Shown here piece by piece: positions 1,115 through 33,646 of a stretch of DNA of 45,768 nucleotides. Numbering within the stretch: position 1 is the stretch's first letter; the number at the start of each line of letters is the position of its first letter. The DNA comes from Candidatus Methanophagales archaeon (GTDB taxonomy: Archaea; Halobacteriota; Syntropharchaeia; Alkanophagales; Methanospirareceae). Location: contig JAPDIG010000003.1 of assembly GCA_025966525.1 (NCBI GenBank), positions 5,857 to 51,624 on the forward strand, in the 5' to 3' direction. The notes under the pieces were generated by a model. That model made no database searches, had not been told where the DNA came from, and saw only the letters and a program-made list of their open reading frames with translations. A program made the translations under genes and the position numbers.

Positions 1115-1888
1115 CTACAAGAACTTTTCTCTTATTTCACCTGCCTTTTCTATCCCGATTTCCACCATTTCCACTATTTCCTCTTCCTTTAACCCACCAC
1201 TACCGCTCTTCTGCATCGCAGATATGGTGCCATCTGCATTTGAAATCACCGTTAATCTGCTTGTGGCTGCATTTTCCTCATTAAAATTCGGGTCCACCAG
1301 GATATTCCCTTCAATTTCTACTGTCGTTACCGCCACCGGTGTGTCCCGCATGGGCAGTGTGTTTTCACCTGTTAAGTCATATCTTTCATTTGGTATGCGG
1401 ATATTCATAAGAGAAGCAATAGCACCTAACGCAGCGGCATCCACCAGATTACCATCGTTGTCTAATATATGTATATCTATAAAGACTATCCATACCTTCT
1501 CTCCTTCTTCTATACACAATTTCTCCAGGTCAATTGCTTCTGAGCCTCGAATGCCTCGGTCCACTACCCGCGCCAGTTGTACACTGTTTTCATCCGGTGG
1601 CCCTGACTCGAATTCGGGGGATGCCAGGGGCACAAATTCTGCATTTGTGATTATCACACCCTCATCAGGTGCATCAGGAAAAGGCTCACCAGGTTCGAGT
1701 TTTATGCCCACTAAAACATCGGTATTCCCTATTTTCACCCTTGCTGATCCCTCTGCGCGCTTTATTACATCCCTCTCCACGCTTATCTCGCGGTATTCGC
1801 GAAATCCCCTGCCATCTACTCTCTTCCCACTTCCTATCAAATCATGTACATAATCTTTCCTTATATCATCCACTATCTCCAGTCCCAT
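1115..1888 (-). CDS. rrp42: Exosome complex subunit Rrp42
   Basis: 257 aa RNase PH-fold protein; operon context with Rrp41/Rrp4. Confidence 0.95.
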   Translation of the reverse strand: MGLEIVDDIRKDYVHDLIGSGKRVDGRGFREYREISVERDVIKRAEGSARVKIGNTDVLVGIKLEPGEPFPDAPDEGVIITNAEFVPLASPEFESGPPDENSVQLARVVDRGIRGSEAIDLEKLCIEEGEKVWIVFIDIHILDNDGNLVDAAALGAIASLMNIRIPNERYDLTGENTLPMRDTPVAVTTVEIEGNILVDPNFNEENAATSRLTVISNADGTISAMQKSGSGGLKEEEIVEMVEIGIEKAGEIREKFL

Positions 1889-1890
1889 CT

Positions 1891-2637
1891 CTATGCCTCA
1901 CCTTCCCCTACATCCACACTCTCACTATATCTATCTATCAACGCCGTTCTTTGCAGCTCGTATATCTGATGACATGCACGCATCGCAAGCTTCAGCCCGC
2001 GCTCAAATTCTTCTTTTTCTAAACGACCGTCCATTTGTAACAATGTAATCGTGTTTGTTCTGGATACCATCGCCACTGGCATATCTGCCTCTCCGTGATT
2101 ATCCTCCATCGCATTCAAATCCAACACTACCTCCCCGCCTATTTTACCAACGGCAATGGAAGAAACCAGGTCTTTCATCGGTATCCCAGCATCAGCAAGA
2201 GCGACAGAAGCAGCATTTATCCCTGCTGTTCGCGTCCCCGCATCCGACTGAAGTATCTCCACATAAACATCTATCGCCGTCTTCGGATAATACTCTCTCA
2301 TAATAACGGGGTCCAGCGCTTCTCTACTCACCTTCGATATTTCCACGCTCCTTCTATCAGGCCCTGGTCTTTTTCTGTCATCTACCGAAAAGGGCGCCAT
2401 GTTATACCGGAATTTAACCACAGCCATTTTTGCATCCTGAGCGTGCCTCGGATGCATCTCCCTCGGTCCATATACCGCAGCTATCACCTTATTATCGCCT
2501 AATTCGAAATAACATGACCCATCTGCTCTTTTTAACACGCCAACCTCTATTTTTATAGGTCTGAGCTCGTCAAAACCTCTTCCATCTAATCTCTTCCCTT
2601 CTTTTATAAGCTCTATTTTTTCTTTTCCTTCTTTCAT
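1891..2637 (-). CDS. rrp41: Exosome complex exonuclease Rrp41
   Basis: 248 aa; [52 protein letters not shown]. Confidence 0.96.
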
Positions 2638-2646
2638 TCTCCCTCT

Positions 2647-3330
2647 TTATCTCCTTCCTTTTGCTCTTTTTAGTCTGAACGAATCTAAAAAAACCGCCAC
2701 TCTATCTGTTAAACCAGAGGTGTGGGACTCACTCGCAATCTTGAATATCGCCTCAGTTGCGAGGTTCATGTCATCCTCTCTGCCTCTTACCCAAATACGA
2801 CCATTCTTTGCTATGAATATAAAGCAATTGCATTTTTCCTTTAACATCTTTATCATCGAACCGTTCCTTCCTATAACTCGTGGTACCTTAGTATGTGGTA
2901 TCTCTATCAATCTTCCACCATGGCTCAGATTGAAATCTTCCTTTAATGCTAAATCTACCCTCATCATCACATCCACATTCGTCACTTTCGCTACGATCAG
3001 ATCATCTAAATCAAGATATCTACTCAAGCTACCAAACTCTATCTTCTCATCCCTCGTATCTGCAAATTCCGACATGTGTAATCGCGCTTCGTAAGGAGAA
3101 GCGATGTCAACAATCCAGAAAGGGAATGAAATCTCTGCTATTCTACCTATCACCACATCTCCTTCTGCTGGCACATACTTCCCGGAAAGCGGTACCACTT
3201 TTATCTCTCCCCTTTCGTCCACTATGCCATATCTCGCTGCATGAACCTTACCCTCCTCAACATAAGTCCCCTCTCCTGCACGACTCACCGCTTCTGAAAT
3301 AAAATCCCCTGGAACCACCACTTTATACAT
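2647..3330 (-). CDS. rrp4: Exosome RNA-binding subunit Rrp4
   Basis: 227 aa; VVPGD start, S1 domain, KH domain VPRVIGRNGSMIKMLKEKCNC. Confidence 0.95.
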   Translation of the reverse strand: MYKVVVPGDFISEAVSRAGEGTYVEEGKVHAARYGIVDERGEIKVVPLSGKYVPAEGDVVIGRIAEISFPFWIVDIASPYEARLHMSEFADTRDEKIEFGSLSRYLDLDDLIVAKVTNVDVMMRVDLALKEDFNLSHGGRLIEIPHTKVPRVIGRNGSMIKMLKEKCNCFIFIAKNGRIWVRGREDDMNLATEAIFKIASESHTSGLTDRVAVFLDSFRLKRAKGRR

Positions 3331-3336
3331 ATTTCT

Positions 3337-4029
3337 TCACTTCACGATCTTCGTCTGAACTTCCCCTTTTGTTATTGTATTCAAAAAAGAGAAGAATTCA
3401 TCCCTCATTCCTGCGGGTACTCGCACCAGTGCGATGAATGAACCATCACCCTGCCATTCCTCCTTCGTCACCGCATAATTCTTTTTTACCTCATATACAC
3501 GCCCGGTGTATGCTGCCGGGATTTTTATCGCTATCTGTATCTCCTCTATCTTTATCGGAATTTTCACCCTTATAGACTTCAGCGTTTCACTTACCAATTC
3601 GTCTATGGACTTAAAAGGGTCAATGTGCACCTTTGCTTCTTTCATTGCTATTTCTATTCTTTGAGGAGGGTGAGGCGTGTTTGTCTGTGGGTTTATAGAG
3701 ATGCGAGAAATTCGTTCTATCACCGCTTTCTTCTTCTCCTCCACCCTTTTCCTCCTTTGCTCGGCGGTAAGGTGCACCTCACCTTCTTTTATTATCCTCT
3801 TTGCTATTTCCCCTACATCTGCCGTAGAGAATACCGCTATCAAATCGCCTTCTGTTGCTTTTTCGCCTTTTGACGCATCCGCAAATATCTCTTCCACCGC
3901 TAAAGCATCTCCTATCTCTTCTTCAACACCACTCCTGATCAAATCCGCCCTTTCCGGGTCTACAAGGACTTCAAAATTCTTCTTGCCGTGCTTATACCTC
4001 GCTATTACTGCTTTGTCCAGACTCACCAT
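3337..4029 (-). CDS. SBDS/Sdo1 ribosome maturation protein
   Basis: 230 aa; VSLDKAVIARYKHGKKNFEVLVDPE; SBDS family and conserved position. Confidence 0.94.
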   Translation of the reverse strand: MVSLDKAVIARYKHGKKNFEVLVDPERADLIRSGVEEEIGDALAVEEIFADASKGEKATEGDLIAVFSTADVGEIAKRIIKEGEVHLTAEQRRKRVEEKKKAVIERISRISINPQTNTPHPPQRIEIAMKEAKVHIDPFKSIDELVSETLKSIRVKIPIKIEEIQIAIKIPAAYTGRVYEVKKNYAVTKEEWQGDGSFIALVRVPAGMRDEFFSFLNTITKGEVQTKIVK

Positions 4030-7240: not shown

Positions 7241-10200
7241 ATGAACAAAATAAACAGAAAAAGCGCGGTTGTAGTGATAACAAGCGTTGTATTATTGGGG
7301 ACTCTTGCGCTATCTACGGGGATTACAAGCGCAGAGAAGATGCCAGCAGAGGAACTGTTCGAGCTTCTCTCCGGCGGCTGGGATTTCAATGGCACAATGA
7401 CCTTAAGCGAACTGACTATGCCTATTATCGGCACGCGAGCTGTCATCCTAACGGGGCCGACCGCTGCAGATTTTGTTGCAATAATGGAAGGAGCGGAGGA
7501 AGCCGAGATAGGGAAAGCTTGGTGGGACGCGGAAAAGGAGAAACTCGCGATTAAAGAAGGAGAAGAAGAACCGAAGTATTTCGATTTACTGGAAAATGGC
7601 TACGGTGGCACGTACGAATTAGAGGAAGGAATTCCTGAGTGGGGCATTACAGAGAAACTTTTCTGCGTGGAGAACCTGACTATCGTCGATGGGAATACCT
7701 TGGCACATATTTGGGTAGCAAGAAATAAAACAGGCATCCTGGTAGCAAAATGGGAAGCCACTTTCACTCGAACTGACAAATGGCACGTGTGCGAAGGCAT
7801 TTCGATTCAGGATGCGATTGAAAATGCAGATGATGGTGACACGGTAATCGTGCACGAAGGTATTTACGAGGAGCAGTTGTATATTGCGAAGAGTCTTGAC
7901 CTTAGGGCTGCGGAAGGTGAGAGCCCAGAGATTCTGGCGCCTGAGCCGGAAGAGCTGGAAAGTTATATCTGCAATTTTTCGCTGGTACCATGGTCATTCA
8001 TATATACACCGATAATCATGATGGATGGAGGCTCTGATGGGATTGTTGTGAACATCTCTGGCTTTGTTATCAATGGTAGCCCTGTAGCCGCGGGGAATTC
8101 TGAATATAGCATAAGTGGTGTGGTATATTACAATGCATCAGGCATTTTCGAGAATAACGAGGTAAAAAATATCTGGGGAGGGGTAAATGAGACAGCAAGA
8201 CCGCTTCCATGGAATGGGGATGCCGTGAGTGTGATTTCAAACTCCGGTGTAGCGATTCGTAAGAATTACATACACAACTATACAGGAGATGAAGCTGCTG
8301 GTATATTCGTTTACTGTGGTGCCAATGCTACGGTTACTCAAAACAATGTCAGCAGTCCAAGAACAAGTGATGCTTCCGATCAGTGTGGTATCGAGGTAGG
8401 GAGATGTTCAACAGCCACGGTGTGTGACAACATCGTCATGGGTCACCTTTATAAGGATCACTGGCGATATGTATGCGGGATTTCATTCTGGGATTCAAAT
8501 GGAACGATACGGAACAATACCCTTATTGATAACATGGTTGGCATCTGTGTCAAAACAGGATGGGCTCAGGCTTCTTCATCGGTGACTGTCGGGGATAATG
8601 TCGTGAGCGTAAGTGAGGTTGGCAATGCGCCTGGGGCTGGTATCATGGTTACCACCCATAAACCGTTCTTCGGGCGTGAATGGATACCTTCTCTCACAGC
8701 TACCATAACCGGCAATAAACTCATTGGCATTAATGGCTCCGGAACTGGCATCGTAATAGGGGCTATTCCTGAACACAAACCATTTGGCATGGTAACTGCA
8801 AAAATCACCAGAAACATCATTTCGGGCTGGGACTGCGGCATCAAACTCTTCAATACATCAAACAGCACCATCTACCTCAACGACTTCGTGAACAACACGC
8901 AGAGCGTTTTCGTGAATGAATCAACTAATATCTACTGCTCACCGGAAAAGTTGGGTTACACCTACGAAGCCAGGGATTATAAAAACTACGTAGGCAACTA
9001 TTGGAGTGATTATGTTGGCGAAGATACAAATGCCGATGGTATTGGCGATATTCCATACGAGATAACCGGAGATAATCCGGACATCTATCCGTTGATGCAT
9101 TCGCAAGAGAACTACGAGCAAATAGGTATTCTGGTCGTAGCGCACGGCAGTCCACGTGAATCGTGGTGCAAACCGGTTCGAGAAGCAGTGGAAAACGTTA
9201 GCATGGGGTATCCCACAGAGCTGGGCTTCCTGGAATTCGTTGGCGAACTCGAAGGCTACAACTTCGTACACGAAGCAGTTGATAAGCTCAATGAACAAGG
9301 CGTTACGAAGATAGTTGCAGTGCCTCTATTCATGTCCTCGAACAGTGGGCACATTGCGGAAATCGAATACGTGCTTGGACTGCGTGAAACGTTACCTGAG
9401 ATGGTAGCGGGTGCAGTAGAAGAAAAAGAGCCGGGAGAGAGAGTGGTAAGCAGAACTCGGGCATTTGTTGAGGGCGTAGAGATGGAGCGTTTCGTCATCT
9501 CACGCGAAGGACGATACTTCATTTCCTATACGCCGATAAGTAATGGTGAAAGTGTAAGTGCAATGCAGCACAGAGTAGAGGAAGAGGAACTCGTGCCTGT
9601 GGACACCACCGCAGAAATCGTGCTTACCGGCGCGATTGACGACCATTCTTTCATTGCACAGATTTTAGCAGATAGAGCAGCAGGATTGTGCACCGACCCA
9701 ACAAACGAAACGATTGTGATTGTTGGTCATGGCACAGATGAAGAAGATTTCTTCCCGGGTTGGGTTAACAGCTCAGAATCACTTGCAGAGAAGGTGAAGC
9801 TGATACTACGACACTGCAAAGGGATCGATATCGAAGATACGAGGTATTCTTTTGTGTTCTCACCTGACGATTACCCGGAAAATCTTACAGTCCGTGCGGT
9901 TGTGGAGAACGTTTCTGCAACTTCTCACCCTGTTGTGGTTCCGTTGATGGTAAGCGAAGGCTTCTTCACCGGCAGATATATCCCCAACATGCTGCTTGCA
10001 GGACTCGACTACGGCTACCCAGAAAGAGGTAGGAGAGCACTTACACCACATGAAAGCGTAGCGAACTGGATAGAAGTGACAGCGGCGAAAGAGCTCACTG
10101 AGGAGTTCGGATACCCCACGGTTCAGATATACGATGGCGAGGAATTGCTGGGCATTTCGCTGGACGAAGTGGGTGCGCATCACGGTAAGATATGCCCATG

Positions 10201-10615
10201 TGTAGCATTTGCATTCAGGTCAGCCTTACGAGCATTTTCCGAAGAAGAACTGTGGGATGGCATTCCACATAGAGGTAACGTGAAAATCATCAGTGCGCAT
10301 CCCTCTGACGGGCACCGGATGACGTTTGAGTACATCTTGAATTCGACCGGGGACGTAGTAATTCAGTCGTCAACGGACATAATAAACATCACTGCCGATA
10401 ATTACGTTTATACCTTTATAAACAAAACCACAAACGATTCGGTCACGCTCAGAGTGAAGGAAGACATATTCCCGGAACATTTCTTTGAACTGAGGACGGA
10501 GAATAAGTTGGGGACTGCAACAAAAGAGGATAAGAAGGCGTTTAAGTTGTTCTGGGGAATGCTAAGGGAAAAGGCGATGTATAAGCCAGCGGGAAAAGTT
10601 TTCGAGGAAGCGTAA
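7241..10615 (+). CDS. Secreted multidomain protein: signal peptide + NosD-like beta-helix + CbiX-like tandem chelatase halves + FmdE-like C-terminal domain
   Basis: 1124 aa; SIQDAIENADDGDTVIVHEGIYEEQLYI and VGNYWSDYVGEDTNADGIGDIPYEI (NosD-type); GILVVAHGSPRESWCKPV and IVIVGHGTDEED (CbiX-like); GAHHGKICPCVAFAFRSALRAF (FmdE-like). Confidence 0.8.
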   Translation: MNKINRKSAVVVITSVVLLGTLALSTGITSAEKMPAEELFELLSGGWDFNGTMTLSELTMPIIGTRAVILTGPTAADFVAIMEGAEEAEIGKAWWDAEKEKLAIKEGEEEPKYFDLLENGYGGTYELEEGIPEWGITEKLFCVENLTIVDGNTLAHIWVARNKTGILVAKWEATFTRTDKWHVCEGISIQDAIENADDGDTVIVHEGIYEEQLYIAKSLDLRAAEGESPEILAPEPEELESYICNFSLVPWSFIYTPIIMMDGGSDGIVVNISGFVINGSPVAAGNSEYSISGVVYYNASGIFENNEVKNIWGGVNETARPLPWNGDAVSVISNSGVAIRKNYIHNYTGDEAAGIFVYCGANATVTQNNVSSPRTSDASDQCGIEVGRCSTATVCDNIVMGHLYKDHWRYVCGISFWDSNGTIRNNTLIDNMVGICVKTGWAQASSSVTVGDNVVSVSEVGNAPGAGIMVTTHKPFFGREWIPSLTATITGNKLIGINGSGTGIVIGAIPEHKPFGMVTAKITRNIISGWDCGIKLFNTSNSTIYLNDFVNNTQSVFVNESTNIYCSPEKLGYTYEARDYKNYVGNYWSDYVGEDTNADGIGDIPYEITGDNPDIYPLMHSQENYEQIGILVVAHGSPRESWCKPVREAVENVSMGYPTELGFLEFVGELEGYNFVHEAVDKLNEQGVTKIVAVPLFMSSNSGHIAEIEYVLGLRETLPEMVAGAVEEKEPGERVVSRTRAFVEGVEMERFVISREGRYFISYTPISNGESVSAMQHRVEEEELVPVDTTAEIVLTGAIDDHSFIAQILADRAAGLCTDPTNETIVIVGHGTDEEDFFPGWVNSSESLAEKVKLILRHCKGIDIEDTRYSFVFSPDDYPENLTVRAVVENVSATSHPVVVPLMVSEGFFTGRYIPNMLLAGLDYGYPERGRRALTPHESVANWIEVTAAKELTEEFGYPTVQIYDGEELLGISLDEVGAHHGKICPCVAFAFRSALRAFSEEELWDGIPHRGNVKIISAHPSDGHRMTFEYILNSTGDVVIQSSTDIINITADNYVYTFINKTTNDSVTLRVKEDIFPEHFFELRTENKLGTATKEDKKAFKLFWGMLREKAMYKPAGKVFEEA

Positions 10616-13278: not shown

Positions 13279-14499
13279 ATGCGCAAGGAAGTGGATGAAA
13301 TAGTAGTAGTTCCAAAGAAGGAATTGGATAAAAAAGAGGAATTAATAAAATCCTTAGAGGCTAAAGCTCAGAAGATGAAATCCGACTTCTCGAGGTATAA
13401 AGAGAGAGTTGAAGATAAAGAAGAAGCAATACGAAGAAAAGCATATAACGAATTAGCCCGTCGGCTGCTCAGCGTTGCTGATACGCTCGACCGGGCAATG
13501 GATAGCCATGAAGCAGATGGAGGTTGCGAACTCGTGGGAAAGATGCTGGAGGGAACGAGAAGCAATCTTGGGATGACCTATAATCAGTTGCTGACCGCAA
13601 TAGGAGTAACTCCAATCGCACCACTACCGGGTGAGAGGTTCAATGATGAATTGCACACCGCAATAGAAACCACACCAAACAGTTTTCTTCCTGATAAAGC
13701 CGTTGTTTCCCTGGTGAGAAAGGGGTATATGCTAAATGGCGAGCTAATCAGACCGGCTGAGGTGGTTATTTCTAAAGGAGGTGAACTTGGGGAAGCAGAG
13801 ATAAAGACTGAAACAACGCCTGTCTTATCCAAATTTATGCGCAGGATAGAGTCAAGGTTGTTCAAACGGAAGTACAAGGAATTAGAAGAAAGAGAGCGGG
13901 AATTGAGCAAAAATGAGGAAATGCTCCGAAACTCGGTTAAAGAACTCGATGCACGCGAGGAAGAGTTTAAAAAGAGGATGGAGGAATGGAGGAAACGAAA
14001 AGAGGCAGAAGAATCAAAGATTCACGAATTGGAGCAGCGCAAAGAGGTTCTGACCGCCGAACTTGAAGCGTCGAAAAGACAATTAGGCGTTATTCATGAG
14101 CATTTGAATGCGATGGATGCTAAAAAAGACAAAATGATTATTGAGAGCATTGCTTTGAACAGATATAATAAAGAGTTATTAGCAGAGAAAGAGAAGCTAT
14201 CAAATACGATAGAAGAAATGGAGAGAACAAAGGAATCTTTAAATGCAGAATTGAGTGAGATAGAAGAAAGAAAAAGGAAATGCAGCGAAGAGCTGTTAGA
14301 GATAGAGAGAGAACTGTGGAAATCGCGGGAGTCGGTAAATGCCGAATTAAGAGAGATAGAAGAAAGAAAAGCGAGGAGTATTAAGGATTTATTTAAGGTC
14401 AAAGAAGAATTACAAAAGACAAAGGAATTGTTAAATTCTGAGCTAAAAGATAAGGAAGAAGAAGAACTATCATTTATGGTGTTTGAAATGCCTTGTTAG
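13279..14499 (+). CDS. GrpE-like nucleotide exchange factor domain fused to a long C-terminal coiled coil
   Basis: 406 aa; GrpE-like core FSRYKERVEDKEEAIRRKAYNELARRLLSVADTLDRAMDS...GVTPIAPLPGERFNDELHTAIET...VVSLVRKGYMLNGELIRPAEVVISK, then ~210 aa charged coiled coil. Confidence 0.82.
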   Translation: MRKEVDEIVVVPKKELDKKEELIKSLEAKAQKMKSDFSRYKERVEDKEEAIRRKAYNELARRLLSVADTLDRAMDSHEADGGCELVGKMLEGTRSNLGMTYNQLLTAIGVTPIAPLPGERFNDELHTAIETTPNSFLPDKAVVSLVRKGYMLNGELIRPAEVVISKGGELGEAEIKTETTPVLSKFMRRIESRLFKRKYKELEERERELSKNEEMLRNSVKELDAREEEFKKRMEEWRKRKEAEESKIHELEQRKEVLTAELEASKRQLGVIHEHLNAMDAKKDKMIIESIALNRYNKELLAEKEKLSNTIEEMERTKESLNAELSEIEERKRKCSEELLEIERELWKSRESVNAELREIEERKARSIKDLFKVKEELQKTKELLNSELKDKEEEELSFMVFEMPC

Positions 14500-14511
14500 A
14501 AGGTGATAGAG

Positions 14512-16260
14512 ATGCAAAGAGAAGTAATCGGGATTGATTTTGGTACGACAAATTCGGGTGCGGCATTTATCGAATTCGATGAGCCCACGATTATAGAGAA
14601 CAATGAAGGAGAGCGTGTGACGCCCTCGGTTGTGTATTTTAAAGAAGATGGGAAGGTGGTAGTGGGAAGTGCGGCAAAGCGGAATATAATTGCAAATCCG
14701 GAGCGCACTGTAAAGTCAATCAAGAGATTTATGGGTACTGACCACCGGGTGCAAATAGGAAATGACTCATATCCGCCTGAGTATATCGGGGCGCAGATAA
14801 TAAAAAAACTCGTTCAGGACGCCGAGAAACGAGTCGGTACTTCTTTTACCGATGCTATAATAACGGTGCCTGCATATTTCATGGACCCACAGCGGCAGGC
14901 GGTTAAGGATGCGGGAGAGATTGCGGGCTTGAACGTGCTTGGAATATTAAACGAGCCAACGGCAGCAGCACTGGCTTTTGGGTTTGAAGAGGAGGAAGAG
15001 CGAAGGATTCTTGTCTATGACTTCGGCGGTGGCACATTTGACGTTTCGGTTCTTACCATAGGAGGAGGTTTCTTCGATGTTGACGCAACGAGTGGCGACA
15101 ACCATTTGGGTGGAGACGACATAGATGCACGAATCGAGGAGTTCATACTGGATAAAATAAAGGAAAAACATAAGATAGACCTGAAAAAGAAGCACGGAGA
15201 AAATCGCGCTCTGCTTCAGTCGTTGAGGGAAGAAGTAGAGCGCGTGAAGATAGAACTGTCGAGTAAGGAAAGGGCAACGGTTAATTTGCCTTTCGTTGGT
15301 AAGGGTAAACGAGGCGCACCAGTTGCATTCAGCTACGAGCTTTCGAGGCGTGAATTTACCGAGTTGATTGCGGATTTCATTGAACGGACGAGAATGCCGA
15401 TGGAACAGGCGCTTGAGGATGCTGCATTGCAGCCTGAGGACATTGACGATATCATTTTAGTTGGTGGAACCACGTTCATACCGGCGGTAAAGGGGTTTGT
15501 ACGTGATTTTTTTGGTAAAGAGCCGGAGCAGAAAGTGAACCCGATAGAAGTAGTCGCACTGGGAGCGGCAGTTGCCACCCTGAAGGAGGGCATAAAGGAG
15601 AAGGAGACACCGGGAAAAATAAGGAGACCCGTGGAAATAAGTGACGTCATCCCGCGCTCTCTCGGTATATTGACCTTTGAGGGGACGGTTCCAAAGATCA
15701 TTACGCGCAATACAAAGATTCCCATCACGCAAACGAGGTTATATACAAATGCGGTAGATTACGCAAGTGAGGGTGTAGTAGCAGTTTACCAGGGAGAAAG
15801 CTTGTATCCAGAGGAGGAAGGTTTTTTGGGCGAGTTCTTGTTTGAAATAGAGCCGAAACCGGCTGGCGAATCAAGAATTGACATATCCTTTACGGTGGGC
15901 GAGGAGTTTGGCATTTTGCACGTCACTGCGTACGATCATGACTCGGGGAATGAGCGAACAGTAAAGATGGAGGCTGTTGGCAGGCTGACAAAGGAAGAGA
16001 AGAACAAGTGGATGAAGAAAATGCTGCGGATGCATGCGATAAAGATAAAAGTAGTGAATATAGAAACAGAAGATGTTCTCCGCTACTATCTCAACCCGAT
16101 TTCGTGTATCGGAGATGTAAGGGAGGACCTGATGAGGAAAGGCATTTTAAGCGAAGGTATGGGCATTTTTTACAAGGATAATGAACTTACCGATGAGCAG
16201 CGGGTTAAGGATACAGGTATTAAGGATGGTTCTGAGCTAGAATTAAGGCAAAGGAAGTGA
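14512..16260 (+). CDS. Hsp70/DnaK-like chaperone with C-terminal ubiquitin-like domain in place of the lid
   Basis: REVIGIDFGTTNSGAAFI; LNEPTAAALAFGFEEEEERRILVYDFGGGTFDVSVL; IDDIILVGGTTFIPAV; SBD-beta present; C-terminal 73 aa read as a ubiquitin-like fold. ATG at 14512 preferred over GTG at 14503. Confidence 0.85.
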   Translation: MQREVIGIDFGTTNSGAAFIEFDEPTIIENNEGERVTPSVVYFKEDGKVVVGSAAKRNIIANPERTVKSIKRFMGTDHRVQIGNDSYPPEYIGAQIIKKLVQDAEKRVGTSFTDAIITVPAYFMDPQRQAVKDAGEIAGLNVLGILNEPTAAALAFGFEEEEERRILVYDFGGGTFDVSVLTIGGGFFDVDATSGDNHLGGDDIDARIEEFILDKIKEKHKIDLKKKHGENRALLQSLREEVERVKIELSSKERATVNLPFVGKGKRGAPVAFSYELSRREFTELIADFIERTRMPMEQALEDAALQPEDIDDIILVGGTTFIPAVKGFVRDFFGKEPEQKVNPIEVVALGAAVATLKEGIKEKETPGKIRRPVEISDVIPRSLGILTFEGTVPKIITRNTKIPITQTRLYTNAVDYASEGVVAVYQGESLYPEEEGFLGEFLFEIEPKPAGESRIDISFTVGEEFGILHVTAYDHDSGNERTVKMEAVGRLTKEEKNKWMKKMLRMHAIKIKVVNIETEDVLRYYLNPISCIGDVREDLMRKGILSEGMGIFYKDNELTDEQRVKDTGIKDGSELELRQRK

Positions 16261-16261
16261 G

Positions 16262-17431
16262 ATGGCGGAAGAGAAGAAATTTGAGGAATGGATGCGATTT
16301 TACACCTGTGATGACCCATACTGGGAAGTTCCTGCACGATACATGGATCAGTCGCGAATAGGACGGTTGGAAAAAAAGCTCGAGAAGTATGACCGACTCT
16401 ATCCGGGCTGCGTGGATGATCTGTACGATGGATTACCGACCTATTACGGGGTGCTTTGTGTATCAAAAAATGATTCGCGAGAGGTAATTGAAAAAGCGTA
16501 TGCACGAAAGAAGAAGTGCTCAGTTTATCCGGACGATGTGATTGAACGAGCATACGAGATGCTAAGTGACAAGAAGAAGCGCTCTACGTATAATGAAATT
16601 ATAAGCACGTTTCTGAAAATCATGATGGCATTCACGGCTGTTGAGAAGCGAGAGATAGCGGAGGACCATGATGACTGGTTAGAACGTGAAAAAAAGAGTG
16701 CTACAATGGGTTACATCATGGAAAATCACAGAGCGTGGCTTTACCTTTTCTATCTTGGCGCACCAACATTTTATAAAATCCTGGGTGTGAACAGAGCGAA
16801 GCTAAAAAACGGTGAAGAAGTAAAATGCAAAAAGAAGAACGTGGACCCCAGATTAGCAGAAGAGATTTGTAGAATACTGAATAATCCACAGCTAAGGTTT
16901 GAATATGATTTCATGCTTGACGAACTGAGTAAGCTTTTTGATGAAAACCCTCTTGCGAATGAACTCATACAGCACTTGCGTGGTTATGGATCATCATCAA
17001 GAAGAAAAAAAGCATTTTTAAAGGGAGAGGATGCTATGTATTTAATGCTGCTCAAATATTTTGATTATCTGGCGCGGTATGAAGAGATTATGAACGAGCA
17101 CCCGGATTGGGAGGAATATCTGGGCAAAAATAAAACGTTTTATACTGTGTTAAACCTCGATGTGGTTTCGATTCCTCCTGATAGACGAGAAGCAGAGAAT
17201 TATATCAGGCATGCATACAAGAATAAGAAGCGCACAGAAGAGGTCAATCTTGCATACAGCGTTTTAAAGAATTCCAGGCTGAGAGAGGACTATGATTGGC
17301 TGTTAAACCATCGGAAATGGGTGAGTGTGATGCATGAATTAAATTTAGAAGAGGCAAACAGTGCGCAAATAAATGAGGTGATGGAAATTGCGGATGCGGT
17401 TGTTGATACAAGAACAAAAGGTTTCTCGTGA
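16262..17431 (+). CDS. Protein with three degenerate J-domain-like repeats
   Basis: 389 aa; repeats TYYGVLCVSKNDSREVIEKAY...IERAYEMLSDKKKRSTYNEI, TFYKILGVNRAKLK...AEEICRILNNPQLRFEYDFML, TFYTVLNLDVVSIPPDRREAENYIRHAYKNKK...VNLAYSVLKNSRLREDYDWLL; no HPD between the helix II and III equivalents. Confidence 0.7.
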   Translation: MAEEKKFEEWMRFYTCDDPYWEVPARYMDQSRIGRLEKKLEKYDRLYPGCVDDLYDGLPTYYGVLCVSKNDSREVIEKAYARKKKCSVYPDDVIERAYEMLSDKKKRSTYNEIISTFLKIMMAFTAVEKREIAEDHDDWLEREKKSATMGYIMENHRAWLYLFYLGAPTFYKILGVNRAKLKNGEEVKCKKKNVDPRLAEEICRILNNPQLRFEYDFMLDELSKLFDENPLANELIQHLRGYGSSSRRKKAFLKGEDAMYLMLLKYFDYLARYEEIMNEHPDWEEYLGKNKTFYTVLNLDVVSIPPDRREAENYIRHAYKNKKRTEEVNLAYSVLKNSRLREDYDWLLNHRKWVSVMHELNLEEANSAQINEVMEIADAVVDTRTKGFS

Positions 17432-21356: not shown

Positions 21357-21737
21357 AAGTTTTGTTTGAAGGACCCAGAGGATTTGGATAAAATACAGAT
21401 AATAGAAGAGGATGGAGAATATTGGGTTAAGTGTGAAGAGTGAGAAAAACAATTTTAATCGCCTGGGGTAACGTACTGCAAATGGATAGGAAATTTGCGG
21501 AATTTGCCTTTCAGCGTAAAGTAACTATCACTATCGAAAGTCTTAAATAAGGTTATGATTTTATTTACATTGGAACTTAAAAATCTGATAAAATCGTAGG
21601 GGAGAGGAGGAGATAACGGGGATGGTGATAGCGGCAAAAAAGAAGAAGGTATTGAGTTGTTTGGTCGTGATTCTGGCTTTGATGTGTATGGTATCTACTT
21701 TTTTAATGGTATTAAGGTGTGGAAAGTAGGAGATGAG

Positions 21738-23474
21738 ATGAGAAAAGGGAAAGCGATGGGTAGAATTTTTGTCATCGTTATGTTGACACTTGGTAAGCAA
21801 GTAATCTTGACAGCAAAAGATTGGGGCCCTAACCCGGGGACAGGAAGAGCTATAGATGTCTCCTATACGGCGTTAAATGCTTTAGGGGCAAAAACGGATG
21901 ACAGAGTAAATATTGAGTTTGCAGACCAAAGTGCGTCACTGGGTCCCGTTCAATTTCATTCCACGCCTGATTATAACAGACAGGCAGCAGTAAATTATGC
22001 GATTAACTATGCCTACAGAGCTTGTGATTGTGGAAAGTACTATGGATCTTCTGACCCACCACAAGGCTCGGGAACTCCGCTAGGAAGCGATGGTGATTGT
22101 GCCCACTTCGTTTCCCATTGCTTAGAAGCAGGCGGGCTTAGCAATAAAGGGTGGTGCAAGGAGAGCTATGCTGATGGACAGGAGTGCAAGCGTGATGCTC
22201 GGGGATGGTGTGAAGGTGACGCTCGTGATTACATCGTAACAGCGCACGAAATGAGAGATTGGTTTTTGGACACAGTGATTACTTATGGATCACCCTCAAG
22301 CCATGCAGTCCTATATATTGGAGACTACAAAGGCAAGCCGCATCGTGTAGCAAGCCATTCGAGATGGGGTATTTTTTCATACACATACTTTGGAACACTA
22401 AGTGAATACTGGCATATTAATGTTGGGTCACTACCTCCAGGGCACTCATCTCTACCTCAAGACCACTCTTTGGTTCGCTGTTCTGATGACACAAAAGTAT
22501 ATTGGCTCCAGAATGGTAAACTATATTGGGTAACCGATTGGAGTATAATCAATGACATGTCTTCGCTACCTGGGTGGTCTATTGTCAATATATTCCCTTC
22601 AGATGTATTCAATCCAGATATTAACAGGTTTAGCATTGGGACATGGATCAAACAAGAGCCATTTTCAATAGATATGTTTTTAAATATAGCTTCATTCACA
22701 ACAGGGGAGACCAAACAGACTAAAGTTACACAAACTTCGGGTAGATTTTATACTGTAAAGACTTATTATCACGTGAAAAAACCGGATGGCACAAAGCGGT
22801 ATGCCTATTATCCAAATCCCTATTTCCAGCCAACTGATTCGCTTTCATTCTCTAATGCAAAGAGACCACTCCATGAGGGTACATGGATTTCTGAATTGAA
22901 AACATGGCATTTTGACACATATACATTTACAGGTAGCGAACCAGAAGGGCAGTGGAGTTGGGAGTTATGGTATGAAAATGTCAATAATCCCAGCGTCAAA
23001 ATTGCCTCTGATACGGTAACCTATACCTTTACTAGACCCCGCCAACAACATGAACAAAACGCATATCTCAACTGTGATGGGAAAGTAGATAGTAGTGACT
23101 CAGGGATCCTGATGATCTATTGGGGAACCGGTGGTTCGGGGGCTACAAGTTGTCAGTCACCAGACATCAACCAAGATGGAATTGTCGATTATCTTGATTT
23201 TAGCATTCTGAAGTCACAATGGACCTACCCGAATAAAGCTCCTGTATCCCCGATAACTATGAAATCGGGTTCTAAAACCGCATACGAGAACCAGATCCTT
23301 GAACTCAGGGTACCTTCCGGCGGGTCTGCTGAAGAGATAGATGGAAGTGGAATAGGGGATACGCCATACCGCATAGATTCCGACTGGGATTACCATCCGT
23401 TGACAGAACCTTTTGAAAATTACTTTATGTCACCAACTTTAGTCAAGGTATACTCTTTAGAGAGAAGATTGTAA
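21738..23474 (+). CDS. Secreted amidase-like (Amidase_6 type) protein with C-terminal dockerin-like repeats
   Basis: YNRQAAVNYAINYAYRACDCGKYYGSS...GSDGDCAHFVSHCLEAGG...SSHAVLYIGDYKGKPHRVASHS; dockerin-like LNCDGKVDSSDSGILMIYWG...PDINQDGIVDYLDFSILKSQW; NosD-like tail GSGIGDTPYRIDSDWDYHPL. Confidence 0.75.
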   Translation: MRKGKAMGRIFVIVMLTLGKQVILTAKDWGPNPGTGRAIDVSYTALNALGAKTDDRVNIEFADQSASLGPVQFHSTPDYNRQAAVNYAINYAYRACDCGKYYGSSDPPQGSGTPLGSDGDCAHFVSHCLEAGGLSNKGWCKESYADGQECKRDARGWCEGDARDYIVTAHEMRDWFLDTVITYGSPSSHAVLYIGDYKGKPHRVASHSRWGIFSYTYFGTLSEYWHINVGSLPPGHSSLPQDHSLVRCSDDTKVYWLQNGKLYWVTDWSIINDMSSLPGWSIVNIFPSDVFNPDINRFSIGTWIKQEPFSIDMFLNIASFTTGETKQTKVTQTSGRFYTVKTYYHVKKPDGTKRYAYYPNPYFQPTDSLSFSNAKRPLHEGTWISELKTWHFDTYTFTGSEPEGQWSWELWYENVNNPSVKIASDTVTYTFTRPRQQHEQNAYLNCDGKVDSSDSGILMIYWGTGGSGATSCQSPDINQDGIVDYLDFSILKSQWTYPNKAPVSPITMKSGSKTAYENQILELRVPSGGSAEEIDGSGIGDTPYRIDSDWDYHPLTEPFENYFMSPTLVKVYSLERRL

Positions 23475-24020: not shown

Positions 24021-24058
24021 AATTAAAAAAGTTGACATCGGAAGGAGGAACAATAGAT

Positions 24059-24529
24059 ATGAAAATCACAAAGAAGATGGTCATTGTTGGTTTGGCAGTA
24101 GTGGTGGTAGTGCTTGCGGTTGCTGGAGCTGCTATGTCCAGCTATATGCACAAACCAGAGAGCTGTGGTAAAATGTGTCATGAGATGCAACCCTTCTATG
24201 ACTCACTACTGGTTTCAGCGCATGGCCGTGCCGGAATAATGGACTGCCATGAATGTCACCGCCCAGAAGGTCCACCCATAGGGCACGGCATCGCGCATAT
24301 CAAGGGGATAGAAGCTTCAGAAATCGAAGATGAAATCCCTGAAGCACCAAAAAACGAATATTGCATGGAATGCCACTTGCGGTACCCTGCCGGACATGAG
24401 GAACATATCACGTGGATGGGTCAGGGATTCCCGGAGTATAGCGGCTATGAGTGCATAGTTTGTCACGACGACCATAGAATGACCGTTAGAGCAGGAACCT
24501 GCACAATTTGTCATCCAATACGTGCTTGA
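24059..24529 (+). CDS. Membrane-anchored NapC/NrfH-like multiheme cytochrome c (about 5 hemes)
   Basis: N-terminal TM anchor; CGKMCHEM (CX3CH), CHECH, CMECH, CIVCH, CTICH; ggaggaac upstream of ATG. Confidence 0.85.
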   Translation: MKITKKMVIVGLAVVVVVLAVAGAAMSSYMHKPESCGKMCHEMQPFYDSLLVSAHGRAGIMDCHECHRPEGPPIGHGIAHIKGIEASEIEDEIPEAPKNEYCMECHLRYPAGHEEHITWMGQGFPEYSGYECIVCHDDHRMTVRAGTCTICHPIRA

Positions 24530-24542
24530 GCTGGGAAAATAA

Positions 24543-25136
24543 TCAGAGTATTGTCGGAACGATCGCGGCTGCAATTATTACCGCGATAATCACCGGTACG
24601 AGAATAGCAAGGATTACAGCGAGGATTGCCATTCCGGGAGATAACTCGTGGAGTTCCATTACTCCGGTGATTACCAGAAGGAGAGACCATATCGGTGCGA
24701 TGATAATGTTCGGCCCTGGAAGCCAACCCAATATTAAGCACGGTGTTGCACCATACGTAATCGCTTTTGTTGTCTGCTTTAACCCTCTTCTACCGCCAAA
24801 CAGGTACACCCAGATGTGAAGCCAAACAGCGATATAAAGGGCGGCGATTATGCCCACAGCGATTATGCCCACAAAAGCACCTGCACCGAGCAACGGTGCG
24901 ATTTTACCAAGCCCCGGTAATCCCGGTATTAACGTCAGTTCAGACAATCCAAGCTTTGATACCATTGCGGTTACTGCAACTGCCACCACGATTGCGAGAA
25001 TCAGTGCGAGAATTGCCAGCAAAAGAACGTAATACTTGAAGGCGTCCGTGATTGTGTCTTCCTTGGCTGCTGCGAATTCTTTTGACGGATTGAACGAGAA
25101 TCCGCGTATTCTTTCGAGGATATTCATTTGTATCAT
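24543..25136 (-). CDS. Yip1-family membrane protein
   Basis: 197 aa, five TM; NILERIRGFSFNPSKEFAAAKEDTITDAFKYYVLLLAI. Confidence 0.7.
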   Translation of the reverse strand: MIQMNILERIRGFSFNPSKEFAAAKEDTITDAFKYYVLLLAILALILAIVVAVAVTAMVSKLGLSELTLIPGLPGLGKIAPLLGAGAFVGIIAVGIIAALYIAVWLHIWVYLFGGRRGLKQTTKAITYGATPCLILGWLPGPNIIIAPIWSLLLVITGVMELHELSPGMAILAVILAILVPVIIAVIIAAAIVPTIL

Positions 25137-25192
25137 CGTTTTTTAAGTGAGGTGATTCTACTATATAAAGTTTTCTAATTTTTCCTGTGACG

Positions 25193-25216
25193 CAAAAAAA
25201 TCGAAAGCTTTATATA
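25193..25216 (+). promoter_or_regulatory. Archaeal promoter (TATA element) of the second NapC/NrfH-like cytochrome
   Basis: caaaaaaatcgaaagctttatata. Confidence 0.6.
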
Positions 25217-25317
25217 TGCTTTTTGCTTAATGATGAACATCTCCTTTTGGAGCATAGACTATATAAGATAAGAAGTAAAAATGAAGGTTATGGATAGAAT
25301 TAGGAGGGAGATTGCGT

Positions 25318-25902
25318 ATGGAAAGAGGTGAGAAGGTCATCATTGCGCTGGTCGTGGTGGTTTTCATCGGGGTTCTCCTCGGTGCTGCAGTTGTGATGCC
25401 TGCGATGATGGAAGAGATGGAAAAGCCAGAGAATTGCGCAAAGAACTGTCATGAAATGGAGCCCTTTTACGTCTCTCTGGAAGGGTCTGTTCATGAGGGC
25501 ATAGATTGCCACGAATGCCACAAACCGCATGGACCTGAAATGTTTATGGTCATGGGGCATGCCCTTCACCATATGGAAGGAATGGTAGTAGGAAAAAGTC
25601 CCGAGGAGATGGCAGAGGAAATCGAGGAGAAACCGCCTGCATCGCCAAAGAGTGAAGTGTGTGAGGAATGTCACAATGGTACGAAAGCCAAGGTTGCGTC
25701 AGAGAAAATTTTAGACCCCTCTATCTCATGTTTTAAATGCCATCGCACGATTGATCACTCGGCACATAAGGTTGGTGATTACAGTGCCTACGAGAGTCCT
25801 GATTATAGTGGCTACGAGTGTGTGGCATGCCACAACGACCACGATATAGATGTTAAGGAAGAAACATGTACTATTTGCCATCCTCTTGAGAAGCACTCAT
25901 AA
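25318..25902 (+). CDS. Membrane-anchored NapC/NrfH-like multiheme cytochrome c (about 6 hemes)
   Basis: CAKNCHEM (CX3CH), CHECH, CEECH, CFKCH, CVACH, CTICH; paralogous to 24059-24529. Confidence 0.85.
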   Translation: MERGEKVIIALVVVVFIGVLLGAAVVMPAMMEEMEKPENCAKNCHEMEPFYVSLEGSVHEGIDCHECHKPHGPEMFMVMGHALHHMEGMVVGKSPEEMAEEIEEKPPASPKSEVCEECHNGTKAKVASEKILDPSISCFKCHRTIDHSAHKVGDYSAYESPDYSGYECVACHNDHDIDVKEETCTICHPLEKHS

Positions 25903-25925
25903 ACCTTTTTTGCACGCAAAAATGG

Positions 25926-27884
25926 TTAGTGGGGGGGATGGCTAATTTTTAATTTCATGAGTTCACCGAGTAGTAATACAGTCATCCCGATTCCCAGTAA
26001 TAATATCCCAAACCAAACAAGCCATATCAGGGGTACTCTCTTTACGACGATAACCGAATCTTCTGGTTGAACTTCCTGCCCCATAAGCGCGTAAAACATA
26101 GAATTGAAACTGGATTTTGTTTGGTGCATGGAAATATACATGTCCCCTGTGGGAGTGGAAATGATCACAGGTTCTGACACCACACCATGGTTTGTGTAGT
26201 AATACATCCACAGGGATTCATGGTGAACATCTGCACCATCTTCGATTGCAACATCTATTTTTAGAGCTGAGCGTTCAGGACCTACGAAAGAATGCTGAGG
26301 GTAGTAAACGCTTCCAGTACCGGGATACACGGTGAAATTACTCAACACAATTTGCATCCCTAAAGACTCAATAACGGAGTCTGGTTTTGCAATGATGTTT
26401 CCGCTCTCAGTTTCAGCAGCAGAACTGACAAAAACGCCTATTAAGACGATTATAATAGCAAGATGCACAAGGGTCTTGCCCCACAATCGTGAAGAGGAAT
26501 TCTTCTTTGACAAAAAGCGAGCAAAATTATAAGCGATAGCAAGTCCTGCCACGAGTAAGAGCGGAAGACCGAAGTTTACAAGCCAATTTGGCGTTGGTTG
26601 CCCGATAGCCGCTAAAACTGCTCCAATAGCCAGCACCGCTACGATTAACATGACATATCTCTTCATTTTCAGACCAATATTGCAACCAGTTAAAGCGGCT
26701 ACGAAGAGGAGCGTGAAAGGGAAGCACCATTTGTTATAAAACTCGGGACTCGTAGTCATGGGGTTCTCTCTGAAAAAGCCGCCTATTATTGGAGCTGCGT
26801 CTCCGAGGAAGCATATAATTAACAAAGACATCAGCGACCAGTAGGCGGCGAAAAGAGCGACAGAATAAAGAGAAGATGTGTCAAGGTCAAAAGTATAAAG
26901 TGGTTTATCCGCCCCCCGTGTTAAATAGAAGAAGTAAGGAACAGCGCAAAAAGCGAACCCTATGAGCACGGGTCCAACAGGCGATTTACCAAAGGCATGA
27001 ACTGACTCCAATAGCCCTCCGCGGGTGAGAGCAGTGGAGAAGATGATCATAAAAAACGTAATCAATAGCGTGAGTTCTTTTCCCAGGTCTTTGCTCCTCT
27101 GGGGCAAGTGGAAATATGCGGTGAGAGCTAACCATGGAAGTAATGAAGCCGTTTCCACAGGGTCCCAAGCCCAGTATCCTCCCCAGCCAAGCACTTCATA
27201 AGACCACCACCCACCAAGAGCTATTCCAAGAGCTAAAAACAGCCATGCCGCATAAAGGGAACGTTTTAAAGCTTCTCTTACTTCTTGCTTTTCGCTCTCA
27301 CCCGTTATCATACCAGCCAGCGTCAGCGCGAATGCGAAGAAGACAAATATGTATCCCAGGAATACCACAGGTGGATGAATGAGGACCCAAAATGTTTGCA
27401 GCAGTGGATTTAGCCCCGAGCCATCCAGGGGTGTCACGGGCAAAAGCTCAAAAGGGCTCTTCAGCAGGGTGACGAGAAGAAGAAAGATGAGAAGGATGTC
27501 CAAGATTTTATATGTGGTCGTGCGAAACATGCTTTCTTTCCCCAACCCCTTAAACCGATACCCAAAATATAGAATGGTAAAGAGGAAGGTTACAAAAAGC
27601 ATTGACCCGCTGCTGCCTATCCAGGGGTCGCCGAGCTTATACCAGAGGGCTAAGCTCGATGAACTGTACGTATAAACCTCACTCAACCAGAAGTTATCAT
27701 TCAGGAATGCCATAGTGAGCCTGAGATAAGAGGCTATTATTAGCACGCAAGCGATGGAAGAAGTGAAAAATGCAAGTTCACGCTTCTTCTTCTCTTCTAG
27801 ATCTGCCTTTGTCATTAACAACAGGATGAAATCAAGAACAAGAAGGACGCAAGCGAAGATTAAGAAGATTTCCCCGGTTTCCAT
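25926..27884 (-). CDS. ccmF: Cytochrome c biogenesis protein CcmF/CcsA family
   Basis: 652 aa polytopic; GWWSYEVLGWGGYWAWDPVETASLLPWLALTAYFH (WWD motif), LLQTFWVLIHPPVVFLGY. Confidence 0.93.
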   Translation of the reverse strand: METGEIFLIFACVLLVLDFILLLMTKADLEEKKKRELAFFTSSIACVLIIASYLRLTMAFLNDNFWLSEVYTYSSSSLALWYKLGDPWIGSSGSMLFVTFLFTILYFGYRFKGLGKESMFRTTTYKILDILLIFLLLVTLLKSPFELLPVTPLDGSGLNPLLQTFWVLIHPPVVFLGYIFVFFAFALTLAGMITGESEKQEVREALKRSLYAAWLFLALGIALGGWWSYEVLGWGGYWAWDPVETASLLPWLALTAYFHLPQRSKDLGKELTLLITFFMIIFSTALTRGGLLESVHAFGKSPVGPVLIGFAFCAVPYFFYLTRGADKPLYTFDLDTSSLYSVALFAAYWSLMSLLIICFLGDAAPIIGGFFRENPMTTSPEFYNKWCFPFTLLFVAALTGCNIGLKMKRYVMLIVAVLAIGAVLAAIGQPTPNWLVNFGLPLLLVAGLAIAYNFARFLSKKNSSSRLWGKTLVHLAIIIVLIGVFVSSAAETESGNIIAKPDSVIESLGMQIVLSNFTVYPGTGSVYYPQHSFVGPERSALKIDVAIEDGADVHHESLWMYYYTNHGVVSEPVIISTPTGDMYISMHQTKSSFNSMFYALMGQEVQPEDSVIVVKRVPLIWLVWFGILLLGIGMTVLLLGELMKLKISHPPH

Positions 27885-27887
27885 TTT

Positions 27888-28313
27888 TTACTCCCATATG
27901 ATAACTTTTTTATCCCTTACCAGCGTGCGAGCTTTTTCATCCACCACCTTCACAATCACCTTTACCATATCCCCCTGTCTCGGTATGGCACCTCTGGGGA
28001 ATCCGAGTACAAAATCGTAGGTACCATTCCCATGATAACCCTCAGCAGCCCAATAGCTGACTTTTGTATTGTTGATTATTGCAAGCGCATCCACACTCGG
28101 GAAACCCGCAGTGGAACTGTCCCTTGGGCTCTTCAAAGGATTCACCGCATCTTGTTCCACGTTAACGATTTCTACCGCCGGTTTGCCATCGGTCACCGTC
28201 ACCTCAGCCTTAACTTTTATTATTGGCACTTCTTCTATCTTTATAATCGGAATCATAACCAGACCGATTAAAAATAGAGCGGCAATAACTACAACAACAA
28301 TACCTTTTTTCAT
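27888..28313 (-). CDS. Membrane-anchored extracytoplasmic protein of unknown function, adjacent to ccmF
   Basis: 141 aa, N-terminal TM, stops just before the ccmF start. Confidence 0.65.
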   Translation of the reverse strand: MKKGIVVVVIAALFLIGLVMIPIIKIEEVPIIKVKAEVTVTDGKPAVEIVNVEQDAVNPLKSPRDSSTAGFPSVDALAIINNTKVSYWAAEGYHGNGTYDFVLGFPRGAIPRQGDMVKVIVKVVDEKARTLVRDKKVIIWE

Positions 28314-28319
28314 CGCTAT

Positions 28320-28979
28320 CTACGCACCCCCTTCTTTTTGTTTAAATATAAATTTTATAAGTGCTTTTAATATATTAGAGATAGTGGGATAAGTCATCTC
28401 TTCTGTTTTTTTCTTCGGTACGCCTTCTATTAATTGATACCCTGCCTCCTTATATTCTATTCCAAACGGACCATGACAAATGACGCACATGTCACCTGTT
28501 TTGTCGCCGTGGACGATATGAGGATTTCCATTATGACAGGAATCGCATTCTTCACTTTCCGGTATTGAGATGTCCTCTTTCTTACCATGGCACTCCTGGC
28601 AAGCGGTGTCCTGATGTATTTTGTGATACTTATCACAGGGAATTTCTTGAGATGCATTTACTATTCCTGTTCCCATGTGACAATCCACACATACTTTTAT
28701 GCCATGTGCGTTCTTCCTGATCTTATTCATGTCTATCGTCCCTGCGGAAGTATACGCTTCTCGATGACAGTTGCAAGACCCAAGCTTTGCAAGCAACTCT
28801 CGGTCCGAGAGAAGCGACACATGGCACTGCCCACACTCAGGTGCGGGGTGCCAGGAGCCTATGAATCCTTTGGGATTTGGCGGAATCACCTCGCTGGCTC
28901 TATCCCCTTCGCCTATGCTGGCGGATACAGCTGCGACAAAGATTACCAGGGCAAGCAAGGCAAATAATTTGATTTTCAT
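28320..28979 (-). CDS. Secreted multiheme cytochrome c
   Basis: Signal peptide; CGQCH, CNCH (CXCH), CVDCH, CQECH, CDSCH, CVICH. Confidence 0.85.
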   Translation of the reverse strand: MKIKLFALLALVIFVAAVSASIGEGDRASEVIPPNPKGFIGSWHPAPECGQCHVSLLSDRELLAKLGSCNCHREAYTSAGTIDMNKIRKNAHGIKVCVDCHMGTGIVNASQEIPCDKYHKIHQDTACQECHGKKEDISIPESEECDSCHNGNPHIVHGDKTGDMCVICHGPFGIEYKEAGYQLIEGVPKKKTEEMTYPTISNILKALIKFIFKQKEGGA

Positions 28980-29092
28980 CTCTTGTCTCTTGGTATATTG
29001 CTTTATTACAAGTAAAATGTATTTCGCTTTTAATTAGAACAGAAAAGTATAATTTTTAAGTAAAATAAACGAAATAGCATAAGAGAGAAGAA

Positions 29093-30205: not shown

Positions 30206-30286
30206 CCTGAGCAGACCTTAAGTAAGACAAGAAGGGAGAGGGGAGGAAGGGATAAAAAATCCCTGTTCTTGTTTTATGTTGCCGTC

Positions 30287-30814
30287 TTACTTCATCACTT
30301 TTTTGTGTATCTCTGATATCTCCCCGACATGGCAAACCTGGCAGTCTTTGCCCCTCGACAGGTGTATATTCACGAGATTTCCCTTGCTTGGTTCGAGCGG
30401 GTTCGGTGTTCCGTGGCACTGCTCACAGGTCGTACCCCCCGGTCCTTTTTGAGGAATCGTAGGTATCTTGCCGTGACACGCCACACATCCAACTTCAGCA
30501 GGATGGACAGTATGCACGGTAGCATTTGCTCTACCATGACAGCCCCAGTAGTCAAAGCAACCCGGTCTTCCATTCACCAGCAATCCACCTTTCACATGAG
30601 CCTCCAAATTGGTAGTCTTCTCCCTTTCGTGGCACATGTCACAACTTAGCGCTGCTGCTACCGCGGGCGTGGGCGCAGGTGTTATTGCAGTTGTAGGCGT
30701 GGGCGTTATCTTCGGTGTTGGCGTCACTTCAGGCGCAGGTTTCTCCACACAGCCTGCTATTACCCCTATTACGACTACCGCAGCTATAACTGCGACAACC
30801 AATTTTTTATCCAT
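30287..30814 (-). CDS. Multiheme cytochrome c, probable lipoprotein
   Basis: TM/lipobox-like IGVIAGCVEKP, Pro/Thr linker; CDMCH, CFDYWGCH, CVACH, CEQCH, CQVCH. Confidence 0.85.
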   Translation of the reverse strand: MDKKLVVAVIAAVVVIGVIAGCVEKPAPEVTPTPKITPTPTTAITPAPTPAVAAALSCDMCHEREKTTNLEAHVKGGLLVNGRPGCFDYWGCHGRANATVHTVHPAEVGCVACHGKIPTIPQKGPGGTTCEQCHGTPNPLEPSKGNLVNIHLSRGKDCQVCHVGEISEIHKKVMK

Positions 30815-30872
30815 TTTTCCATCGTATTTGTATAGCTACGTATCCCTTTAAAAGGTTTTCGTTTTTTTTAAT

Positions 30873-32783: not shown

Positions 32784-32812
32784 TGTTTCTTCTTTTCTTG
32801 AACCTCCTATTC

Positions 32813-33592: not shown

Positions 33593-33646
33593 TTCTTCTT
33601 GCCCTTGCCTCCTTTGGGATTTGTTTTTTTTTTGTTCTTGTAATAA

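Follow-up and report, generated by a model that had tools for sequence, protein, structure and literature searches.

A 45,768-nucleotide stretch of the genome of a Candidatus Methanophagales archaeon, here called the window, contains a gene that appears to place a metal chelatase outside the cell. This raises the question of what such a protein might act on there, and in which direction. A sequence-only reading had proposed a secreted fusion of a beta-helix, two CbiX-like halves and an FmdE-like domain, handling tetrapyrroles or metals at the cell surface in connection with c-type cytochromes. We compared the protein with profile and structure databases, and with relatives found in a search of 59 relatives and 397 genomes of the phylum.

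Domain organization and export

The open reading frame of 1124 amino acids extends exactly over positions 7241-10615 (+) of the window (Table 1). Pfam matched NosD (PF05048) to residues 388-593 (E 3.6e-16) and CbiX to residues 635-714 (E 1.5e-10, 41.8 bits against a cut-off of 22), and gave no match to the N-terminal domain. The second chelatase half also had no Pfam match in the window protein; it was clear in the alignment and in the structure model. Searches of NCBIfam returned the CfbA sirohydrochlorin nickelochelatase (F430_CfbA, 6.6e-9, 35.8 bits against an equivalog cut-off of 120), and the NosD family (5.8e-22; TIGR04247 as a domain match of 77.8 bits against 300). Within the beta-helix, PDB sequence matches were obtained to 2kzw and NosD 7o0y at residues 581-620. 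Identification as a NosD copper maturation protein was rejected, the score being far under the cut-off and Nos genes not being seen. Two of the domains named beforehand, NosD and CbiX, exceeded their Pfam cut-offs, whereas FmdE was weak in the window protein. The chelatase module was 52-70% identical in eight further loci; it is therefore neither a product of chance nor a frame artefact, and chance domain similarity was rejected.

Table 1. Features of the gene for the chelatase-like protein, in window coordinates
Feature	Position	Strand	Basis or remark
Whole gene	7241..10615	+	secreted multidomain protein, 1124 aa
Signal peptide, about residues 1-31 (MNKINRKSAVVVITSVVLLGTLALSTGITSA)	7241..7333	+	sequence, hydrophobicity
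N-terminal domain, 'GGWxFNGTMT...'	7334..7783	+	also in G013, G021, G022 relatives
Right-handed beta-helix, NosD type	7787..9100	+	Pfam NosD 388-593; PDB matches
Chelatase half 1, putative metal site	9110..9388	+	Pfam CbiX, alignment, model
Putative metal-site residues H635, E665, H704	9143, 9233, 9350	+	in chelatase half 1; alignment
Beta-rich insert separating the chelatase halves	9389..9580	+	alignment, model
Chelatase half 2	9581..10080	+	H830 (9728), H937 (10049); alignment
FmdE-like domain	10109..10612	+	C985-P-C987, H1020-P-S-D-G-H1025; Pfam FmdE

The signal peptide has a basic n-region and a hydrophobic stretch at about residues 9-25 (mean Kyte-Doolittle value 2.41), and the orthologues likewise start with signal-peptide-like sequences. 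The protein contains 27 N-x-S/T sequons, 15 of them in the beta-helix. When its own residues were shuffled 2000 times the mean was 7.7 and the maximum 17, and export is supported by this excess. Sequon density is 2.40 per 100 aa, against 0-0.9 in soluble-looking open reading frames of the window. Two relatives (G007 and G014) have a C-terminal hydrophobic segment and a basic tail, resembling archaeal surface anchors. Judged from these sequence features, the window protein is exported and probably glycosylated. The proposal of a secreted fusion of a beta-helix with CbiX-like halves and an FmdE-like part was borne out by the open reading frame, the profiles and the signal peptide.

Chelatase fold and putative metal site

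An AlphaFold2 model of the module, based on 23 aligned modules, had a pLDDT of 91.3 and a pTM of 0.90; it replaced an earlier model made from nine close sequences (pLDDT 62). The best Foldseek match in the PDB was SirB of B. subtilis (5zt8, E 1.7e-8, probability 1.00), with an alignment TM of 0.73-0.75 of the target. FetB of P. gingivalis (9b86, 1.0e-6) and ferrochelatases (2.5e-6) followed, and further matches were the periplasmic CbiK of D. vulgaris (2xvz, 1.9e-5), Salmonella CbiK and archaeal CfbA. There was also a sequence-profile match to CfbA 6m25 (E 1.6e-5), and a BFVD search gave nothing significant. In the model, both CbiX-like halves join into a single bilobal fold of the class II chelatase type. 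Pfam CbiX, alignment, model and Foldseek all agree with the initial description of this region as a pair of sirohydrochlorin-chelatase-like halves.

The metal site of SirB, His10/Glu43/His76, corresponds to His9/Glu42/His75 of CfbA (PMC11301274). These residues map to H635, E665 and H704 of the window protein (H12, E42 and H81 of the module). Both histidines are identical in 23 of 23 modules, from seven archaeal families, and the acidic position is Glu or Asp in all 23 (Asp in two). Other invariant residues are W642, E660, H937 and G629. Relative to CfbA, the spacing between the PLF motif and the histidine of the second motif is longer by one residue, giving a gap in the alignment. In half 2, H830 is kept in 22 of the 23 modules and the second His of the pair is replaced (SEGFFTGRYIP); the site is therefore asymmetric, with its His pair in the N-terminal lobe. 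The same arrangement is described for CbiX-L and SirB (PMC7689651). Taken by alignment, the metal-chelatase site is apparently intact. The catalytic-type histidines were conserved in every relative examined, rather than lost from all homologues, and this favours a function over a purely structural role.

The archaeal protein and SirB are thus alike in the bilobal two-repeat fold and the His-Glu-His set of the N-terminal lobe. SirB, a sirohydrochlorin ferrochelatase, is however cytosolic and single-module, whereas the archaeal protein is exported, shares about 13% identity with it, and has an insert, an FmdE-like domain and a beta-helix. Where SirB has Arg134, the alignment of motifs places H830 in the archaeal second lobe. 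Closest to the module by sequence, on the NCBIfam and PDB profile values given above, is CfbA/CbiX-S of archaea. This is a cytosolic homodimer of 120-145 aa that serves F430 or siroheme synthesis, whereas the window protein is fused, exported and below the equivalog cut-off.

The FmdE-like domain

FmdE (PF02663) was matched by the window protein with an E value of 0.015 (15.8 bits against 22.9; 22.9 with neighbours in frame). Two orthologues passed the Pfam cut-off, L067 with 23.8 bits over 2-133/133 and L016 with 23.0 bits over 2-132/133; a further one scored 19.3 bits against 22.9. When the FmdE-like part was searched against PDB sequences, only chance matches and no FmdE structure came up; in the structure search with the module, chelatases predominated. 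Known FmdE structures bind Zn or Ni through HGHxC and a distant Cys (PMC2954224). The corresponding motifs of the window protein are HHGKICPC, in which one of the three HGHxC ligands is missing, and HPSDGH, which has no equivalent of the distant Cys. HGHxC(PC) is kept only in L005, L067 and L068. Compared with the FmdE proteins DSY1837 and Ta1109, which are cytosolic and of uncertain role, the window protein is exported and has HGK for HGH, CPC for CPG and HPSxGH for the Cys55 motif. The FmdE assignment therefore holds in part: orthologues pass the cut-off, but the domain is divergent here, and its motifs mark it as FmdE-like rather than FmdE proper.

Secreted FmdE-like relatives that have no chelatase part are found in feo operons (L028, L029, L031, L032, L033 and L077). 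The window's own genome also encodes a secreted protein (L063, G000:C14, 1-5238) whose Pfam FmdE score of 26.0 bits exceeds the cut-off; its neighbours are CbiM, CbiQ, an ABC ATPase and a DUF4198/PGF-CTERM protein. The association of exported FmdE-like proteins with metal importers seems to be a general one.

The conserved module and its carriers

Comparison of the relatives shows that the CbiX-CbiX(-FmdE) module is the constant unit of the family and that the beta-helix is optional. Beta-helices were present in G000 (the window's own genome), G011 and G021, and by sequence also in fragments from G027 and G277. In G012, G372, G395, G155 and others the signal peptide leads directly into the chelatase. 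Being present in some relatives and absent from others, the beta-helix is a replaceable carrier and lies outside the conserved unit. The beta-rich insert is also missing from several relatives (L010, L069 and L078).

Additional chelatase halves were found in G007 and G383, where the FmdE part is absent, and the second chelatase copies of G007 are degenerate. Several modules occur in single proteins of 4226 aa in G389 and 1650 aa in G147. A scan of viral contigs found no relative of the module.

Some individual loci had further features. The 4226-aa reading frame (L072, G389:C1, 4880-17560 (-)) contains at least four chelatase modules and adjoins a DtxR-type gene, with FeoB about 8 kb away; the G389 genome has 5,751,492 bases. 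At L018 (G029, 1618-3741 (-)) an in-frame junction connects the beginning of the N-terminal domain with the tail of the beta-helix, which looks like a deletion of about 570 aa that the G021 relative retains. In the genera g53 and g68, methyltransferase-like genes of similar sequence are neighbours of the secreted chelatase gene (L069, 7008-7841; L087, 1937-2779).

Genomic context

The module gene of relatives adjoins split or fused feoB, feoA, feoC-like and DtxR-type genes, and Pfam confirmed FeoA, FeoB_N, FeoB_C and Fe_dep_repress near module genes. A feoB gene (PF07664) was located within 10 kb of the module gene in 15 of the 29 module-bearing genomes, where 0.5 were expected; the nominal P of 1.7e-19 treats related genomes as independent and therefore overstates the linkage. 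Linked cases come from seven families (f1, f8, f10, f12, f23, f32 and f37). On the module tree, linkage to feo is found on all deep branches and is lost on inner branches. In seven of the other genomes the contig is too short to tell or the gene is at a contig end; G011, G014, G259 and three f8/g53 genomes are unlinked. Serving as a rough control, short cytosolic CbiX copies in G155, G159, G348, G372 and G395 have no feoB close by. FecCD-type genes were found nearby only in G383.

These data bear on a purely structural role at the surface, for which the chelatase and FmdE folds would have become functionless building blocks like the beta-helix. The variable carriers, the repeats of the module in giant proteins and the degenerate second copies of G007 could be explained in this way. 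However, H12, H81 and H314 are invariant across the 23 modules, which diverge to identities as low as 28%, and the feo linkage is non-random. A structural role is already disfavoured, and we regard it as very improbable.

The window's own copy lies among genes for a LysE-type transporter, a coiled-coil protein, a GtrA-type protein and GyrB. It is not beside feo, the feoB of this genome being on contig C62, so that we can only infer for it the same function as in its relatives. A separate cytosolic CfbA is encoded on contig C19. A cytosolic biosynthetic CfbA was rejected as an identity for the window protein, because of this separate copy and because of the signal peptide and sequons. No match to MCR alpha was found in the genome, which is 95% complete.

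The feo operon of this genome (L061, G000:C62, 3631-7062 (-)) holds a shortened secreted FmdE-like reading frame of 118 aa, which retains its signal peptide and is otherwise unlike its relatives, and a shortened FeoA-type reading frame (108 against about 235 aa). Both are broken copies or assembly joins.

The sequence-only reading had tied the protein to the c-type cytochromes of the window. The cytochrome and CcmF-like genes begin at about 24 kb, about 13 kb downstream of the gene, and the module is not among cytochrome genes in the neighbourhoods of relatives that were read. The link was rejected on both grounds.

The cytochrome region itself (24032-35146) contains seven small multiheme c-type cytochrome reading frames with 4-5 CxxCH motifs each; a CcmF-like/Cytochrom_C_asm protein (25926-27884) and a signal peptidase (S26, 32037-32909) are encoded within the cluster. 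Elsewhere in the window, a 605-aa exported-looking reading frame (21657-23474) matches amidase_6, dockerin and DPBB, here in an archaeon. Consecutive GrpE, Hsp70 and DnaJ-domain genes are located at 13279-17431; GrpE (406 aa) and DnaJ (389 aa) are unusually long, and Hsp70 is under the DnaK equivalog cut-offs.

Proposed role in iron acquisition

We propose an extracytoplasmic class II chelatase-like protein of archaeal iron acquisition, which would obtain Fe2+ from tetrapyrroles, or bind Fe2+, for FeoB; we give this an even chance of being correct. A tetrapyrrole, for example heme or siroheme from decaying cells, would occupy the interlobe cleft. Fe2+ would be withdrawn onto the His-Glu-His site, the protein acting as a reverse chelatase (dechelatase) or as an iron relay outside the membrane. 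The iron would then pass to the CPC/HPSxGH site of the attached FmdE-like domain, or to separate FmdE-like proteins anchored in the membrane, before import by FeoB. The beta-helix would serve as an interchangeable scaffold. A narrower version, which we put forward tentatively, is a dedicated extracellular tetrapyrrole dechelatase of anaerobic archaea with a fused FmdE-like relay, mining heme or siroheme iron for FeoB. The original suggestion of a tetrapyrrole- or metal-handling surface protein gains from the fold, the site and the feo/DtxR context of relatives, but draws no support from the cytochromes.

Three points favour removal of metal over insertion: the neighbouring genes import Fe2+ and include iron-type regulators, biosynthesis already has a cytosolic CfbA of its own, and there are two bacterial precedents. 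In B. fragilis, heme iron is removed in the periplasm with the ring spared and is imported via FeoAB (PMC6460266). This Bacteroides system resembles the archaeal one in extracytoplasmic iron removal and Feo import, whereas its BtuS/HmuS proteins are relatives of class I (CobN-like) chelatases and are not homologous to the archaeal module. IhtB/FetB of P. gingivalis is thought to take heme iron at the outer membrane (PMC10913741; PMC13402209). This surface heme lipoprotein (9b86) shares with the archaeal protein an extracytoplasmic class II fold and a place in an iron/heme system. It differs in being a bacterial outer-membrane protein of CbiK type that works with the Iht transporter and has no FmdE part; no feo tie is described for it in these papers.

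For FetB, formation of Mn-protoporphyrin at the surface is also reported (PMC13402209), so that insertion in place of removal is conceivable. The archaeal protein would then place Fe, Co, Ni or Mn in exogenous sirohydrochlorin or porphyrin, salvaging metal-free tetrapyrroles outside the cell. Metal insertion is the activity of all well-studied class II chelatases (PMC7689651), and a periplasmic CbiK, for which heme binding is reported, exists in D. vulgaris (cited in PMC11301274). This cobaltochelatase (CbiK-P, 2xvx/2xvz) is likewise an exported class II fold in an anaerobe, but is of CbiK type and single-module, unlike the archaeal fusion. Against insertion, the module gene is accompanied by iron importers and DtxR-type regulators rather than by importers of tetrapyrroles, and we consider it improbable.

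The main rival to iron removal from tetrapyrroles is plain capture of Fe2+ or another divalent metal outside the membrane, with free or sulfide-released Fe2+ held by the His-Glu-His and FmdE-like sites and passing to FeoB, and no tetrapyrrole involved. It would fit the feo/DtxR context. Tandem and degenerate chelatase copies that lack an FmdE part (G007, G383) resemble binding arrays, as does the multi-module 4226-aa protein of G389; secreted FmdE-like relatives accompany Feo and CbiMQ with no chelatase part, and FmdE proteins bind Zn or Ni (PMC2954224). Plain metal binding, however, needs neither the entire bilobal fold nor the non-ligand invariants W642, E660, G629 and H937, all of which are kept. 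We judge it rather unlikely.

Exported class II chelatases are already known in two bacteria. New here are the archaeal occurrence, the SirB-like position of the site, the FmdE-like fusion and the feo tie. In the literature on CbiX with FeoB, FmdE, NosD or Methanosarcina, no description of the module family was found. Methanogen iron acquisition beyond FeoAB has been called poorly known, relatives included, and the homologue survey in the same study excluded SirB/CbiX chelatases (PMC8351635), so that the module group could easily have been overlooked.

The release of heme iron under anaerobic conditions, without the oxygen-dependent heme oxygenase, is an unsettled problem for strict anaerobes, and the heme dechelatase of Bacteroides has been described as unidentified (PMC6460266). 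The occurrence of a secreted chelatase with feo/DtxR ties across archaeal families makes this problem testable in a genetically tractable archaeon. If the proposed removal of iron is true, the dechelatase would be the kind of enzyme still missing for anaerobic, ring-sparing release of heme iron.
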